From a virus, in IMG/VR virus record IMGVR_UViG_3300032308_000085, positions 1 through 23,869 of that record: DNA of 23,869 nt. One strand, 5' to 3'. Under the pieces are notes generated by a model. That model made no database searches and was not told where the DNA came from. It saw nothing but the letters and a program-made list of their open reading frames with translations. The translations under genes were made by a program, and so were the position numbers. Position 1 is the first letter of the stretch; every line of letters starts with the position of its first letter. Of this stretch, positions 4,790 to 23,778 are shown piece after piece.

Positions 4790-7242
4790 TGTTGGTTCTC
4801 CTGGGCGAGTTGTCGTCCCGTTTGGATTGCACTCTGCAAAAACTGAATGCGTGCATCCAGAGATTGTGGCAGGTTCACTTCTTTTGCGAAATCCCCAAAC
4901 GACTTGCTCATGGCTGTGCGACGGATGGACGCCTGACTGGGTTGGCCACCCCTGGTGGCAGCTTGCACGGCCAGCTCTTGGAACTCTGGTGAGGCAAAGA
5001 GCTTGGCGGCCTGCTGCACTCCAGCACCCTTGGCTGATGACATCCATTGCACGATGTCTGGTGCGATCAATCCACCGCCAGGCACCATGCTGGCCGCGCC
5101 AGTGGCAGCACGTTGTGCCACGCTGCTGGAAATGACTCGACCCATCAAGCCCTGGACCGCTGCATCGCCAAGAATCTGGTTTGCCTTGCCTGTGGTCGGG
5201 ATGCGAGCCTGTGCATCTGCGATGCGTCTCGAAATCTCGTAGAGATCACGCGATGCACGGTCCCATTCTGGCCCCATGATCTTGACCATCTGTGAATAGA
5301 CAGGAGGATTTGCACGAAGGCCACGATAAACCTTGGTGAATTCAGCAGGACTGAACACGGTTTCAGCAGCTCCTGCTGCCGCACGACCAGCGGCCCTGCC
5401 TGCGGTAACAGACGCCAGCGCAGTTGCCAGCGTCTCCTTTTGCAACTCATCTGGCACCACTTTCATAAGACGGTTAAATGCCGCTGCATCGCCCTTTGCA
5501 GCGGTTGTGATGGCTGTCTGCATACGTTGTGCGACACTGCCATCAATCTCCTGGCCGAATGCGCCGACGATACGCTTCTCCAGTGCCTTTTGCTTGGCAG
5601 TCAGCAAGTTGGCTGCACGCAGTTCACGCCGAGCCTCCTCGCCTGCCAGCGTTGCCACGTTGTCCAGTTGATCTTGAGCCAGTACTGCATACAGGCGTTT
5701 GAGATCACCGGCTGCCATGTTGTCATATGGTGACTTCAGACCACCAACGGCCTGTCCAACCAAATCTTTCTCGCGTTTGAGGCCGAAATAGGTCAGCTCA
5801 CCCTTTTCCAGCATCTTTGCCAGATTGGATTCCTGGGGCGTCATGCGACCTGCAGCGCCCAAGTTGGTACGCAGCTCGTCGAGATACGTTTGCAGATTGT
5901 TTAGATTAACTGGTGCATTCTTCGGAACAACCTCGTCGATCCGATCGTAAATTGCCTTGGCGTCAGTTTTCAGCGTCTGCCTGGCCTGCTGCAAGTTGTC
6001 TGCAATCTTCTGAGAGATAGCCCCAGGAGCTGGTCTTCCAGCAATGAAATTCGCATCAAACTGCTGAGACACTTCGTCGGCACGCTGGATGGCGTTGCGC
6101 ACGGTGCTTTCCCATGCCGCCTCTGCCTCGCCTGCGACCAGCGCACGAGTCAGGCCCACAGCACTGCGAACCTGCGGGTTATCGCTGAACACATCGAATG
6201 GCAGGTCCATGTTCAGGCGCTCGGCTGCTGCACGAGCCTCTGGGTTGATCTGCGCAAGATCAATAAGTTGGGCCTTAGCCGCTGACGATCCAGGCCCGAA
6301 TCCTCCGGCCTTGCGTGCCAAGTTCAGAACGTCAGTGACGCCGACTTCCGCGGCCTCTGCAGCCACGGCTGGGGCCGCTGCAGGCGCTGCCGCTGACGGT
6401 TGCATCTCTGGTGTTGCTGCAGCCATAGAAGGCGCTTCAGGCGTTGCTCCCGCCCTGGGAGGCTCTTCAAAAAATGTTGGCTGAATGCGCTGTGCTGGAG
6501 GAGGTGTCTCTGGAGCCATCGCGGTGCCCATAGAGGCACCAGGAGCGCCTGGGGCTGGAGCAGGGGCCGGTGCTCGGCCTGTAACGCGCTGTACGCTTCT
6601 GCGCACGGCTGCGGTAACCGGAGGTGCCACTCGCTGCAGAATCTGCCCTGCTGGGCCTGTGGCTGCCGCCAAGGCAATCTCTTGTGGGCTAACTTTCCCG
6701 CCAGTGGCGGCCTGAGTTGCCTCGATGGCTGCTTGGGTTGCACCAGCGCCAACAATTGCGCCAGGAATGGTCGCAGCTCGGCCTGCTGGCGTGAAAGCTG
6801 CAATACCTCCAATTGCTCGAGGAATATCGCCCATTGTGAAACCTGGCGGGATGGCATATTCCCGCTGGTTGACGGACGATCTCAGGATGAAGTTTCCCTT
6901 TTCGTCTTGGCGCACCTGCACTCCAGGGAAATTGGATTGCAGAATCTGCACCGTCTCATTGGGATTACTGAGCAGTGATCCAAGAGCAGTTTTAAAAGAT
7001 GCCACGCTCATCTGATTGAGTTCTGGCATGGTCGTCCACTCAGGCAATCGCTGAGTTTCAGGAGTTGTGCGAGCGCGGCCAGTCACAGTCTCAACCAAGC
7101 CCTCGAAGAATCCCATCGGTTTTGGCTGCGATGCTAGCCATTGCTCAGGCGACATTGGTGCTGCAGCCGGTGCTGGAGCAGGAGCAGGAGCCGCAGGAGT
7201 AGCCTGCTTAGTCTGTGATGCGAGCCATTCTTCTGGACTCAT
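4786..7242 (-). CDS. Large DNA-ejection protein (P22 gp16 position)
   Basis: An 818-aa internal virion protein, probably released with the DNA to help it cross the envelope. Order seen: two copies of MSPE[EQ]WLASQ (1-10 and 30-39) joined by an Ala-Pro linker; a globular part (about 43-137); a Gly/Ala-rich hydrophobic segment (about 138-180) that could insert in a membrane; a long Pro/Ala linker (about 215-300); then a long mainly helical region to the end. It is third of three ejection genes before the spike, as gp16 is in P22, but no direct homology to gp16 can be claimed by eye. ATG 7242 overlaps the upstream stop as ATGA; the in-frame GTG at 7275 would add an unlikely extension. Confidence 0.8.
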   Translation of the reverse strand: MSPEEWLASQTKQATPAAPAPAPAPAAAPMSPEQWLASQPKPMGFFEGLVETVTGRARTTPETQRLPEWTTMPELNQMSVASFKTALGSLLSNPNETVQILQSNFPGVQVRQDEKGNFILRSSVNQREYAIPPGFTMGDIPRAIGGIAAFTPAGRAATIPGAIVGAGATQAAIEATQAATGGKVSPQEIALAAATGPAGQILQRVAPPVTAAVRRSVQRVTGRAPAPAPAPGAPGASMGTAMAPETPPPAQRIQPTFFEEPPRAGATPEAPSMAAATPEMQPSAAAPAAAPAVAAEAAEVGVTDVLNLARKAGGFGPGSSAAKAQLIDLAQINPEARAAAERLNMDLPFDVFSDNPQVRSAVGLTRALVAGEAEAAWESTVRNAIQRADEVSQQFDANFIAGRPAPGAISQKIADNLQQARQTLKTDAKAIYDRIDEVVPKNAPVNLNNLQTYLDELRTNLGAAGRMTPQESNLAKMLEKGELTYFGLKREKDLVGQAVGGLKSPYDNMAAGDLKRLYAVLAQDQLDNVATLAGEEARRELRAANLLTAKQKALEKRIVGAFGQEIDGSVAQRMQTAITTAAKGDAAAFNRLMKVVPDELQKETLATALASVTAGRAAGRAAAGAAETVFSPAEFTKVYRGLRANPPVYSQMVKIMGPEWDRASRDLYEISRRIADAQARIPTTGKANQILGDAAVQGLMGRVISSSVAQRAATGAASMVPGGGLIAPDIVQWMSSAKGAGVQQAAKLFASPEFQELAVQAATRGGQPSQASIRRTAMSKSFGDFAKEVNLPQSLDARIQFLQSAIQTGRQLAQENQQ

Positions 7243-20698: not shown

Positions 20699-21922
20699 TC
20701 ACCACTTTTTCATGTTGGCGATTGGGGTGAAAGCCATTGGTCTAGATGCACTGGATCGCCGAACGGCCTCGCAAGCGTAACGCAATGCGTCAATAACGTG
20801 GTTTTTCTTGTCCTCAAGCACCGGCAATATTCTGCCGGTCAATGGGTCTTGCTTATAACTGTAAAGCGTCAGCTCGTCAATTGTGTGAATGCAACGTGGA
20901 TGGACAACGATGTCGTAGTTCTTCAGAAACTCAATGCCTTCCTCGACTGACTTCGGACCTTTAATCGCGGTCATGATCTTGGGAAAGCCATTTTTCTTCA
21001 TGTGACTGATGGTCTCCGGCCTGGCAGAGTCGGCCACAATGGGCCACTTCTCGGCCTCAGGCACTGTCATGAACAGCTCAGGCGTGTTCACAATCTCGCA
21101 GCCGACCATGTAGGCCTCGTGGTCGATGTATAGTGTTCGGCCAATGATGTGACAGCGCACCAGCGTGGTTGGATCAACGGCAAAGCCCCAGTCAGCACCC
21201 AAGCGATGGATGGCATCTGGTGGTGCCTCAAAGTCCTCGACGCGCCAGTTCTTAAACACTCGACTGCTGCTGTTGGTCAGATATTGACCCATCCAGACAT
21301 GACTGTATTTGTCTGGATCACGTCGCTTGTCGTACTCCATCTCGTCGCGCAGTACGTCTGGAAACCACGGGTTGTCAGTGAAGTTGACCTTCAGGACGGT
21401 TGCATCTTTTGGCGGTGTCGGACCGCGCAGCAGGAAATCCACCGGATCGGATTGATCGCGTGGGTTCCAGGTAAACCACAGTTCTGAGCCTGGCTTGCGG
21501 ATTGTGGGCCGCAGCAGATCGAGACTGGTCTGGCTCAGACTCTGGGCCTCCTCGACCCAGGCGCAGTCGTAGCCCTCCAGCGATTTGATGCTATCGGCGG
21601 TGTGGTTCTGCATACCTTGGAAGATGATCGCGCCATCAGCCTTGCGTGACTTGATGACCGCATCCTGCACCTCGAAGTAGGCGCCAGCATTCATGGCCTG
21701 AATCTTGGTCTCGAGCAGGCGTTTGACGGACTGGTTTAGCGACTTCTGGATTTCACGAACGCAGACGCTGCGCCGTTTCTGATCCATGATGTGGGCCTCG
21801 ATCATCAGCTCGGCAAACATATGGGACTTGCCAGAGCCTCGGCCACCCCAGGCGCCCTTGTATCGTGCTGGCTCGAGCAGCGGCAGTGACCATTTGGGAG
21901 TCTCAAGGCGCAAAGTCGTCAA
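20699..21922 (-). CDS. terL: Terminase large subunit
   Basis: A 407-aa DNA-packaging motor with an ATPase and a nuclease domain. Walker A is GGRGSGKS (26-33) and Walker B is CAWVEEA (120-126, catalytic Glu125 or 124). The WFTWNPRD stretch (149-156) is the usual coupling motif. Nuclease aspartates are probably Asp244 (GADWGF), Asp298 (VADSA) and Asp378 (HVIDALRYA). The N-terminal half resembles Sf6 gp2 and the whole fits the PBSX/Terminase_3 family. The start is TTG 21922, overlapping the small-subunit stop as TTGA with GGTAGGGA beside it; another TTG lies three codons later. No ATG exists before Walker A, so a non-ATG start is required. Confidence 0.95.
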   Translation of the reverse strand: MTTLRLETPKWSLPLLEPARYKGAWGGRGSGKSHMFAELMIEAHIMDQKRRSVCVREIQKSLNQSVKRLLETKIQAMNAGAYFEVQDAVIKSRKADGAIIFQGMQNHTADSIKSLEGYDCAWVEEAQSLSQTSLDLLRPTIRKPGSELWFTWNPRDQSDPVDFLLRGPTPPKDATVLKVNFTDNPWFPDVLRDEMEYDKRRDPDKYSHVWMGQYLTNSSSRVFKNWRVEDFEAPPDAIHRLGADWGFAVDPTTLVRCHIIGRTLYIDHEAYMVGCEIVNTPELFMTVPEAEKWPIVADSARPETISHMKKNGFPKIMTAIKGPKSVEEGIEFLKNYDIVVHPRCIHTIDELTLYSYKQDPLTGRILPVLEDKKNHVIDALRYACEAVRRSSASRPMAFTPIANMKKW

Positions 21923-22374
21923 TTCCCTACCACCACGCGCTCAATCTTCTGAATGGCCAGCGGACGATCAGGATCTCCGGTCAGCTCCAGCTTGTCACCG
22001 TACTTCTTCGGAGCCAGCTTAGACAGCAGCCACTTGCGTGTGTCGACCTGGAGCTTGTGCTTCTGCACCGCAGCCCAGTCTTTCTTGCCGTCCGGCTGCA
22101 GTCCGACATCAGCGTCACTCAGCTCGAGCACCTCGTTGGCGATGCGCTCAATCAGGTCTTCCCTCGCGCGTGCGTAACTGTTGGCCAGCTCTTCGTCATC
22201 CCTGATCCACTCCAAAAACGTGCTGTGAGGAACACTAGCAGCCTCGCAGGCTTTGAAAGCGCTCAGACCGCAGCGCATTCCCGAGAACACCAAGGCGCAA
22301 ATGTCTGCCTTGTTCTCGTACTTGCTGGGCCTGAGCTTTGCCGGTCCTTTAGAATTTTTTGCGACCGATGACAT
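21919..22374 (-). CDS. terS: Terminase small subunit, Sf6 gp1-like
   Basis: A 151-aa protein that recognises phage DNA and starts packaging. Residues about 24-57 form a helix-turn-helix (ICALVFSGM...AFKACEAASVPHSTFLEWI); ELANSYARAREDLIERIANEVLELSDAD is the central oligomerisation helix pair. The conserved block KLQVDTRKWLLSKLAPKKYGDKLEL (107-131) matches the RLRVDTRKWALARMNPRKYGDKV block of Sf6 gp1. The C-terminus (PLAIQKIERVVV) would contact the large subunit. It overlaps the large subunit and precedes it, as expected. The ribosome site before the ATG is weak (AAAGATC). Confidence 0.93.
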   Translation of the reverse strand: MSSVAKNSKGPAKLRPSKYENKADICALVFSGMRCGLSAFKACEAASVPHSTFLEWIRDDEELANSYARAREDLIERIANEVLELSDADVGLQPDGKKDWAAVQKHKLQVDTRKWLLSKLAPKKYGDKLELTGDPDRPLAIQKIERVVVGN

Positions 22375-22397: not shown

Positions 22398-22682
22398 TCA
22401 GTGATCTGGAAATGAGATTACGAAAGAGACTTCGTTTTCTTCATCTTCATCTTCTGGTTCTTGCTCGCACTCATGCTCGCCAACAGACAGAAACTGGGCA
22501 ATGTGCTGGTTTAGCACGCGCTTGAGAACGTCACGGCATTGTGGGCATTCCTCGAGGTCGATTGCACCCATCATGACAGCGACTTCCTCGGCCAGCTCGC
22601 TCTTGCCAGCGTCTGATCCATTTTCATACGCCTGGGCGTGGATGTCGTCCAAGTGTTGGGCTGCTGAGTTATTGAAGTTCAT
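22398..22682 (-). CDS. Acidic protein with CxxC, unknown function
   Basis: A 94-aa protein with a helical N-terminal half (AQHLDDIHAQAYENGSDAGKSELAEEVAVMMG), then a CPQC pair (46-49) and LKRVLNQHIAQFLSV helix. The tail is very acidic (ECEQEPEDEDEENE, about 71-84) and ends SFVISFPDH. AAGGA lies about eight bases before the ATG. It sits just before the small terminase, so it may act in early head assembly or packaging. The acidic tail could mimic DNA or bind metal or basic proteins; none of this is shown. Not a recognised family. Confidence 0.75.
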   Translation of the reverse strand: MNFNNSAAQHLDDIHAQAYENGSDAGKSELAEEVAVMMGAIDLEECPQCRDVLKRVLNQHIAQFLSVGEHECEQEPEDEDEENEVSFVISFPDH

Positions 22683-22691
22683 GTTTTTTCC

Positions 22692-23054
22692 TTACTTGAG
22701 AAATTTAAGTTTAAAAAGAGTTGAGTCAATGAGCTGCGCGATCTCATCAATGAGATTCTGGATTTCGGTCTCGTCGGGCATGATTTCGCGTGAGTCTTGA
22801 ACGAAATACTTGATGCCTACCAAGTACTCGACAGGATCATCTGCTGGAAGGTAGTAGTCGTCTGGGAAGCCGGTGAATTGCCCGTGCCTGCCCATGTAGA
22901 CTTCTGCGAGCCGGTCTACCAACTTAGGCATTGCTTGGTAATACTCACCAAGCGCCTGGTGCTCGGAATAGCTGCTAGTGGTCCAACGCAACAAATGCGC
23001 GTTTGTGCCTGAGTGCAGAAGCACCGAGACAAAAGTGCTGGCTTCATTTTCCAT
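22692..23054 (-). CDS. Small ferritin-like protein with Dps-type ferroxidase residues
   Basis: A 120-aa helical protein. Numbering from ATG 23054, His20, His32, Asp47 and Glu51 have the same spacing (12, 15 and 4 residues) as E. coli Dps ferroxidase residues His51, His63, Asp78 and Glu82. Trp24 and a Tyr/Leu-rich helix lie between them (HLLRWTTSSYSEHQALGEYY). The fifth Dps ligand, Asp67, corresponds to Gly36, with Glu37 beside it. The protein is shorter than Dps (167 aa) and lacks its basic N-terminus. I recall a related phage family of unknown function (DUF5856). ATG 23054 with GGTGG five bases upstream is preferred over a GTG at 23135, because the codons between encode a terminator hairpin. 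Confidence 0.7.
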   Translation of the reverse strand: MENEASTFVSVLLHSGTNAHLLRWTTSSYSEHQALGEYYQAMPKLVDRLAEVYMGRHGQFTGFPDDYYLPADDPVEYLVGIKYFVQDSREIMPDETEIQNLIDEIAQLIDSTLFKLKFLK

Positions 23055-23064
23055 TTGCACCACC

Positions 23065-23091
23065 AAAAAAAAGGGCAACACTCTGTCGCCC
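23065..23091 (-). terminator. Strong intrinsic terminator before the ferritin-like gene
   Basis: On the minus strand a 7-bp stem (GGGCGAC / GTTGCCC, one G-U pair) with a 5-base loop is followed by eight T's (23072-23065). It lies about 40 bases after the DUF3310 stop and only 10 bases before the ATG at 23054, with the presumed ribosome site starting directly after the T-run. It should end transcription of the upstream genes unless antitermination or read-through occurs. Confidence 0.9.
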
Positions 23092-23131
23092 AATCGGGCA
23101 ATGGTTTGGCTAGGAGTGCGCCTGTTCCCGA

Positions 23132-23374
23132 TCACCCGCGTTTTAGCACGTCTTGAAGATGTACGTCAAACGCTCTCTTGCGCCGCTCGATTTCCCGATC
23201 CAGATACCAGCGTGCCTTCTCGAGGTCTTGCATTCCAGCCTTGAGATCTGCTCTCCAGATATATTTCATCGCGTTTCCCAAATTGAAACTCATGTGCTCT
23301 GTGATCTGAATGCACTCAACGCCGCTCGGGTGCTGAGTGTAATGCTGTGGGTGGTTGACTGGATCGTGTTTCAT
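23132..23374 (-). CDS. DUF3310 protein
   Basis: An 80-aa protein with the whole DUF3310 (PF11753) pattern: MKHDPVNHPQHYTQHPSGVECIQITEHMSFNLGNAMKYIWRADLKAGMQDLEKARWYLDREIERR. The family is common in phages, often near nucleotide or DNA metabolism genes, and its biochemical role is not established. ATG 23374 overlaps the stop of the upstream Cys4 gene as ATGA and gives the typical N-terminus; an in-frame GTG at 23404 would add ten residues. The terminator at 23065-23091 follows, so this is the last gene of its transcript. Confidence 0.9.
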   Translation of the reverse strand: MKHDPVNHPQHYTQHPSGVECIQITEHMSFNLGNAMKYIWRADLKAGMQDLEKARWYLDREIERRKRAFDVHLQDVLKRG

Positions 23375-23778
23375 GAAAGGACGCTCGTTGAGTATTCGCC
23401 GCACCAGTGGCCATCGTCCACGGGTGGCCAGCCAGGTGATTGGTTGCCGTTCTCGTCTACCAGCAGCTCTGGTGATCGGCGTCTACATTCACCCATCCAG
23501 GCGTCTGTCCCATCTCCTCCAAGTAAGTTGAAATATCTACAGGATCCGCAAGTAGGTCGCACAGCCATTCCTCCAAGAATAGGTCGCTTGTTTGTTCGTC
23601 GATCACTGGTCTCATATTGTGCCTCGTACTGGTCTATCAAAACGGTAGCGTCGGTCTGAATTTGCTTTGCAAGACTGACCACGCAATCTAACTCAACCTT
23701 GAACCCTGCGCACTGTTTTTGCAGCTCGCTTGTGTTCAATTGGATGTTTGTGATTGATTCACTTACTTGATAACTCAT
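23371..23778 (-). CDS. Four-cysteine protein with CxxC...C...C site
   Basis: A 135-aa protein. The N-terminal 55 residues are helical and look like a coiled coil (TSELQKQCAGFKVELDCVVSLAKQIQTDATVLIDQYEAQYE). The C-terminal half has CGSCRYF (77-83), GECRRRSPEL (97-106), WPPV (117-120) and HWCGEY (124-129), a compact four-Cys pattern I recall from many phage proteins that probably bind zinc or an Fe-S cluster. It may be regulatory or bind nucleic acid. It is coupled to both neighbours by ATGA overlaps and belongs to the block upstream of the terminator. Exact function unknown. Confidence 0.8.
   Translation of the reverse strand: MSYQVSESITNIQLNTSELQKQCAGFKVELDCVVSLAKQIQTDATVLIDQYEAQYETSDRRTNKRPILGGMAVRPTCGSCRYFNLLGGDGTDAWMGECRRRSPELLVDENGNQSPGWPPVDDGHWCGEYSTSVLS

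Follow-up and report, generated by a model that had tools for sequence, protein, structure and literature searches.

The 120-aa protein encoded at 22692..23054 (minus strand) of the window, by which we mean the whole 23,869-nucleotide stretch of viral DNA analysed (IMG/VR record IMGVR_UViG_3300032308_000085), is an ordinary member of a known phage family, DUF5856 / PHROG 858, and the kinship of that family with Dps, as a ferritin-like four-helix bundle, is well supported. The reading we favor, to which we give a probability of about 0.6, is that the protein is a small derivative of Dps whose typical relatives hold a metal at a subunit interface, and that this phage has a degraded site at which efficient ferroxidase activity is unlikely. 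A preliminary description of this DNA had pointed to a four-residue match with the ferroxidase ligands of Dps. The kinship that it suggested stands, while one of the four histidine and acidic residues that it matched is not at a ligand position.

A known phage family with a Dps-like fold

The open reading frame (23054..22692) is intact, and its product scores 66.8 bits against the Pfam model PF19174 (DUF5856; E 3.8e-18), above the curated cut-off of 34.6, and E 5.8e-25 against PHROG 858, which carries the name 'starvation-inducible transcriptional regulator'. Most of the length is matched in both cases, and at the level of profile matching membership is settled. An upstream start giving a 147-aa ORF was rejected: the added stretch is a conserved leader, and homologues begin MENEA. 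With the rest of the family the protein shares a full-length match, the predicted fold and conserved columns, of which we count five (His20, His23, His32, Asp47 and Glu51, a set derived in the present analysis and not a published family definition). It carries four of the five; column 23 is Arg, not His, a difference from the other members that it shares with three near-identical phages.

Relatives turn up by tblastn in 612 phage records at E <= 1e-3, a number that rises to 1,330 when the limit is E <= 10, and include T4 mobD.7/rI.-1, Aeromonas phage Aeh1, Ackermannviridae and freshwater phages. The preliminary description had considered a ferritin-fold protein unexpected in a packaging block, a view we cannot share, as the family is common in phages, its PHROG bears a Dps-type name and its neighbors vary. 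Phage-carried proteins of Dps type have also been reported in gut-phage 'Gratiaviridae', as DPS-family enzymes of the ferritin-like superfamily (PMC8008677). Further relatives occur in one betaproteobacterial assembly and in two assemblies of Candidatus Actinomarina, a marine actinobacterial group (contigs L272, positions 5926-6369, and L273). The L272 gene lies beside decarboxylase and sugar-isomerase-like genes and encodes His23-Trp24 with Gln at column 20, and the Actinomarina copy may be of cellular, not phage, origin. Our search of the literature for DUF5856 returned no paper naming the family and no described mechanism.

An AF2 monomer model of the window protein made with 65 relatives (pLDDT 95.0, pTM 0.89) is a four-helix ferritin-like bundle, the outcome that the preliminary description had required of its proposal, with predicted helices at residues 2-23, 29-57, 74-91 and 96-118. 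The top Foldseek match of this model in the PDB is a Dps (prob 1.00, TM 0.67, E 0.15), and most high-probability matches are Dps or other ferritin-like proteins; none of the PDB matches reaches E 0.001. VIA aligns 109-120 residues to PA2169, Dps and bacterioferritins with Z 11-12.8, in a range (Z ~12) that unrelated helical bundles can also attain. Since helical bundles match by chance, a fold match is insufficient on its own to establish kinship, and we therefore sought evidence from sequence.

Searched against PDB sequences, the family profile reaches a Dps-family chain at E 2.2e-4 and several further Dps at weaker scores, and hhalign against E. coli Dps with 24 other Dps-like sequences (n=25) gives E 2e-6 with Prob 77-89. 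A genuine Dps found by the DUF5856 model (L345, 1396-1827, minus strand) matches PF00210 at 4.5e-19 and DUF5856 at 1.6e-5 and is, on these scores, a sequence bridge between the two models. PF00210 itself, the check suggested by the preliminary description, did not match the window protein in a search where DUF5856 was the sole family listed at E up to 10, and a single-sequence search of PDB sequences with this protein found nothing. Taken together, the predicted model, the fold search, the profile matches and the bridging Dps support a ferritin/Dps fold and ancestry for the window protein, and on sequence comparison and predicted structure DUF5856/PHROG 858 forms a compact, phage-borne branch of the Dps/ferritin-like superfamily, with a short A-B loop, no basic tail and no predicted BC helix. 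The window protein has the bundle of E. coli Dps and equivalents of its His63, Asp78, Glu82 and Trp52, but is 120 rather than 167 residues long, has an A-B loop three residues shorter, and carries Arg at the His51 position and Gly at the Asp67 position. It begins MENEAS directly at helix A, without the basic N-terminal tail of E. coli Dps, and is acidic (pI 4.6, net -10). Dps has a short helix in the B-C connection, whereas the AF2 model of the window protein has none there (residues 58-73).

Which histidine corresponds to the Dps ligand

The preliminary description set His20, His32, Asp47 and Glu51 against His51, His63, Asp78 and Glu82 of E. coli Dps. These residues, with Gly36 and Glu37, are as given in the ORF translation, and the Dps numbering given for those four agrees with the protein of MG1655, in which we read His51, Trp52, His63, Asp67, Asp78 and Glu82. 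The H-12-H-15-D-4-E pattern is not a matter of chance within the family, because just 0.05% of shuffles of the window protein produce it, and it occurs in 268 of 273 family members as against 6 of the 8,043 unrelated ORFs that share their loci. The family carries two histidines on the same helix, at columns 20 and 23, and profile-profile alignment places column 23 on Dps His51 and Trp24 on Trp52, with three residues deleted from the A-B loop; the remaining ligands then pair as His32 with His63, Gly36 with Asp67, Asp47 with Asp78 and Glu51 with Glu82. HMMER alignments to solved Dps likewise put the column-23 His on the His of the Dps 'HW'. In two relatives with a longer A-B loop (L089 and L270) the 12-15-4 spacing is counted from the column-23 His and the column-20 His stands at 15; in L088 the two histidines stand at 13 and 16. 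Column 20 is occupied by Arg or Gln in three others (L269, L272 and L273), which keep His23-Trp24.

Profile alignment, loop-length variants and conservation thus lead us to reject the equation of His20 with Dps His51. The 12-residue spacing from His20 comes about because an offset of one turn and the three-residue A-B deletion add up, and as far as these alignments go the 12-15-4 match of the window protein is in part an accident of register. The 'HxxxW' noted in the preliminary description is therefore the Dps 'HW' in which Arg has taken the place of the His. In the window (all codons on the minus strand), codon 20 (22995..22997) encodes the conserved His that aligns to Lys48 of E. coli Dps, not to the ligand His51, and codon 23 (22986..22988), at the position of that ligand, is CGT for Arg. 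His32 (22959..22961), Asp47 (22914..22916) and Glu51 (22902..22904) are the part of the four-residue match that stands. Gly36 (22947..22949) lies where Dps has Asp67, and the fifth ligand is missing, as had been noticed.

Loss of a ligand under purifying selection

Conservation of the matched residues had been proposed as a test, and we find His32, Asp47 and Glu51 in 40/40 clusters having the position and His20 in 38/40. His23 is likewise present in 40/40 representatives of 80% clusters having the position, and Arg at this column is confined to the window protein and its three near-identical phages (L001-L003). The codon is CGT in this group and CAT (His) in L004, L005, L024 and L026. At column 36 most members have Gly or Gln, T4 has Asp and Klebsiella phage Matisse has Glu. 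By these alignments four of the Dps ligand positions are retained in the family (His23, His32, Asp47 and Glu51), and the fifth is usually absent. The window protein keeps three of the five (His32, Asp47 and Glu51) and has lost the column-23 ligand, most likely with a metal site that is weakened or lost.

We consider it unlikely that Arg23 is a sequencing error: the same CGT stands in four contigs that differ by 11-19 pairwise synonymous changes. Gene decay can be rejected as well, given dN/dS values of 0.04-0.09 within the Arg23 group (window and L001-L003), and the gene is under strong purifying selection. With Arg23 and Gly36 together, efficient ferroxidase activity is unlikely. Of the two parts of the preliminary proposal, fold and ancestry are supported, and iron binding or ferroxidase activity of this particular protein is weakened.

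The T4 homologue rI.-1

T4 rI.-1 (MobD.6/MobD.7; mobD.7 at L084 311-694) belongs to the same Pfam and PHROG family and has the same predicted four-helix fold, with about 22% identity to the window protein and a different setting, the rI operon. Unlike the window protein it keeps the column-23 His and an Asp where Dps has Asp67, and all five Dps ligand positions are filled at equivalent columns (His33, His42, Asp46, Asp57 and Glu61). Its predicted model is a confident ferritin-like fold (Z 12-13.9 to Dps) that aligns over residues 13-128 to residues 31-165 of E. coli Dps, and His33 (column 23) falls on Dps His51, provided that helix A is left ungapped. In the review PMC6832632, rI.-1 is said to share one operon with rI, and its over-expression from a plasmid to delay slightly the collapse of lysis inhibition; no other experimental clue from a relative came to light than this slight effect and the state of one T4 laboratory stock, in which rI.-1 carries a frameshift (PMC8573959) and so is non-essential. 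Our search of the literature for rI.-1 together with Dps found no paper joining them.

Genomic context and a conserved leader

The virus record has P22-like head genes, with holin and endolysin genes at its far end. The order, all on the minus strand for the genes located here, is DUF3310 (23132..23404), the DUF5856 gene, a 94-aa ORF with no family match (22398..22682), an Sf6-like small terminase subunit (21919..22374), the large subunit (20699..21922), and then P22 portal, scaffold and P22 coat. The gene had been placed beside terminase, and it is, with the one 94-aa ORF in between. Neighbors of DUF5856 genes differ among phages (RusA resolvase, portal, HNH nuclease, terminase, rI); the gene adjoins portal genes in several podoviruses and a holin in P19250A. 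A RusA-like Holliday junction resolvase gene lies directly upstream in L058, L072, L074, L082 and others. We rejected a functional link to the head from gene order, which varies, and nothing therefore ties the family to the head.

Reading by consensus gives a conserved putative promoter at 23140..23169 (minus strand), TTGACG-18-TAAAAC, in which TGn precedes the -10; a promoter scanner did not list it because its -10 ends in C. The TG is conserved among relatives and the n is variable. A conserved leader of two hairpins follows (23073..23133, minus strand), in which stem I (23133-23092) has one pair with a compensatory change (U-A/C-G) and the second stem (23091-23073) is an 8-bp intrinsic terminator, followed by a T8 run (23065..23072) that ends 10 nt before the ATG. 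Mean column identity across the leader is 87% (14 sequences), and Rfam gave no match to it. It occurs in 34 viral contigs, and the DUF5856 gene follows in 30; the remaining four contigs run out about 130 nt or less from the motif, and the same start is seen in two. Late promoters of the lambda type are gated by a terminator, and by analogy the DUF5856 gene looks like the first gene of a late operon behind such a promoter. The stretch from 23169 to 23065 (minus strand) is a possible site of antitermination control of the late operon.

What the protein might do

We propose that typical members pair their A-B helical hairpins two by two in the manner of Dps, that a metal would then be held at the dimer interface by His23 and His32 from one subunit together with Asp47 and Glu51 from its partner, and that the protein would act in the infected cell, either by buffering iron or peroxide or through the oligomer itself. 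A metal or oxidation function for DUF5856 proteins is our inference. In the window phage the change of His23 to Arg, with Gly36, would leave a degraded site at which efficient ferroxidase activity is unlikely, and selection would keep the fold or the oligomer, possibly with weak metal binding by His20, His32, Asp47 and Glu51. Within the late operon the protein would be made first, with the promoter-proximal terminator as a gate.

His20 might stand in for the lost His23, being about one helix turn away, and one could then imagine a working mini-ferritin in which His20 joins His32, Asp47 and Glu51 to oxidise and store iron or to detoxify peroxide. The retention of all four residues, the presence of His20 in nearly all clusters and the very low dN/dS are consistent with this, but the alignments and loop-length variants give the ligand position to column 23 rather than to column 20, Gly occupies the Asp67 position and an Arg within the site would be expected to disfavour Fe(II), and we think it rather improbable. 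A tentative alternative, which we would still call unlikely, is a reuse of the fold in which metal chemistry plays no part; the protein could, for instance, be an accessory that regulates the timing of lysis or another phage protein. The site is degraded here, Asp67 is missing in most members, P19250A has its copy next to a holin, and over-expression of T4 rI.-1, a gene of the rI operon, slightly delays the collapse of lysis inhibition (PMC6832632). Yet that effect is slight and comes from a plasmid, the neighbors vary (RusA, portal, HNH), and near-invariance of His23, His32, Asp47 and Glu51 across very divergent phages is hard to explain unless most members hold a metal.

Two further readings carry far less weight with us. 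A role in the head or in packaging, with protection of the packaged DNA, as the preliminary description had suggested, would suit a gene just before the terminase genes and the adjoining portal genes of several podoviruses, but the context is not conserved, an acidic protein (pI 4.6, net -10) without a basic tail does not suit the role, and the homologue in T4 belongs to the rI region and is frameshifted in a laboratory stock (PMC8573959); we regard this role as very improbable. The Dps likeness could also be convergence or chance in an unrelated four-helix bundle, as weak Foldseek E-values and the ease with which helical bundles match might suggest. Independent sequence-profile matches to Dps, the bridging Dps, the 'HW' match of Trp24 to Trp52 and the near-invariant ligand columns all speak against such a coincidence, which we hold to be barely credible.

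Returning to the Dps-derived protein with a degraded site, we find it tempting to speculate further that the family is a virus-specific compact branch of Dps with an interfacial metal site that works in most members and is complete in T4 rI.-1, and a role in iron or peroxide handling in the infected cell and in lysis timing, and that the site has been lost in some freshwater phages where the protein serves a second role. This broader picture is speculative, and we would not bet on it; if it is true, freshwater phages such as the window phage lost the catalytic His and kept the protein under strong selection. T4 rI.-1, with its five ligand positions, is the natural candidate for an assay and more interesting in this respect than the window protein. 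A tempting motif match is corrected here, in that the matched His lies away from the ligand position, where the true ligand has been lost, and iron chemistry should not be assumed for this protein. For DUF5856, a family widespread in phages, the kinship with Dps provides an identity that can be tested.
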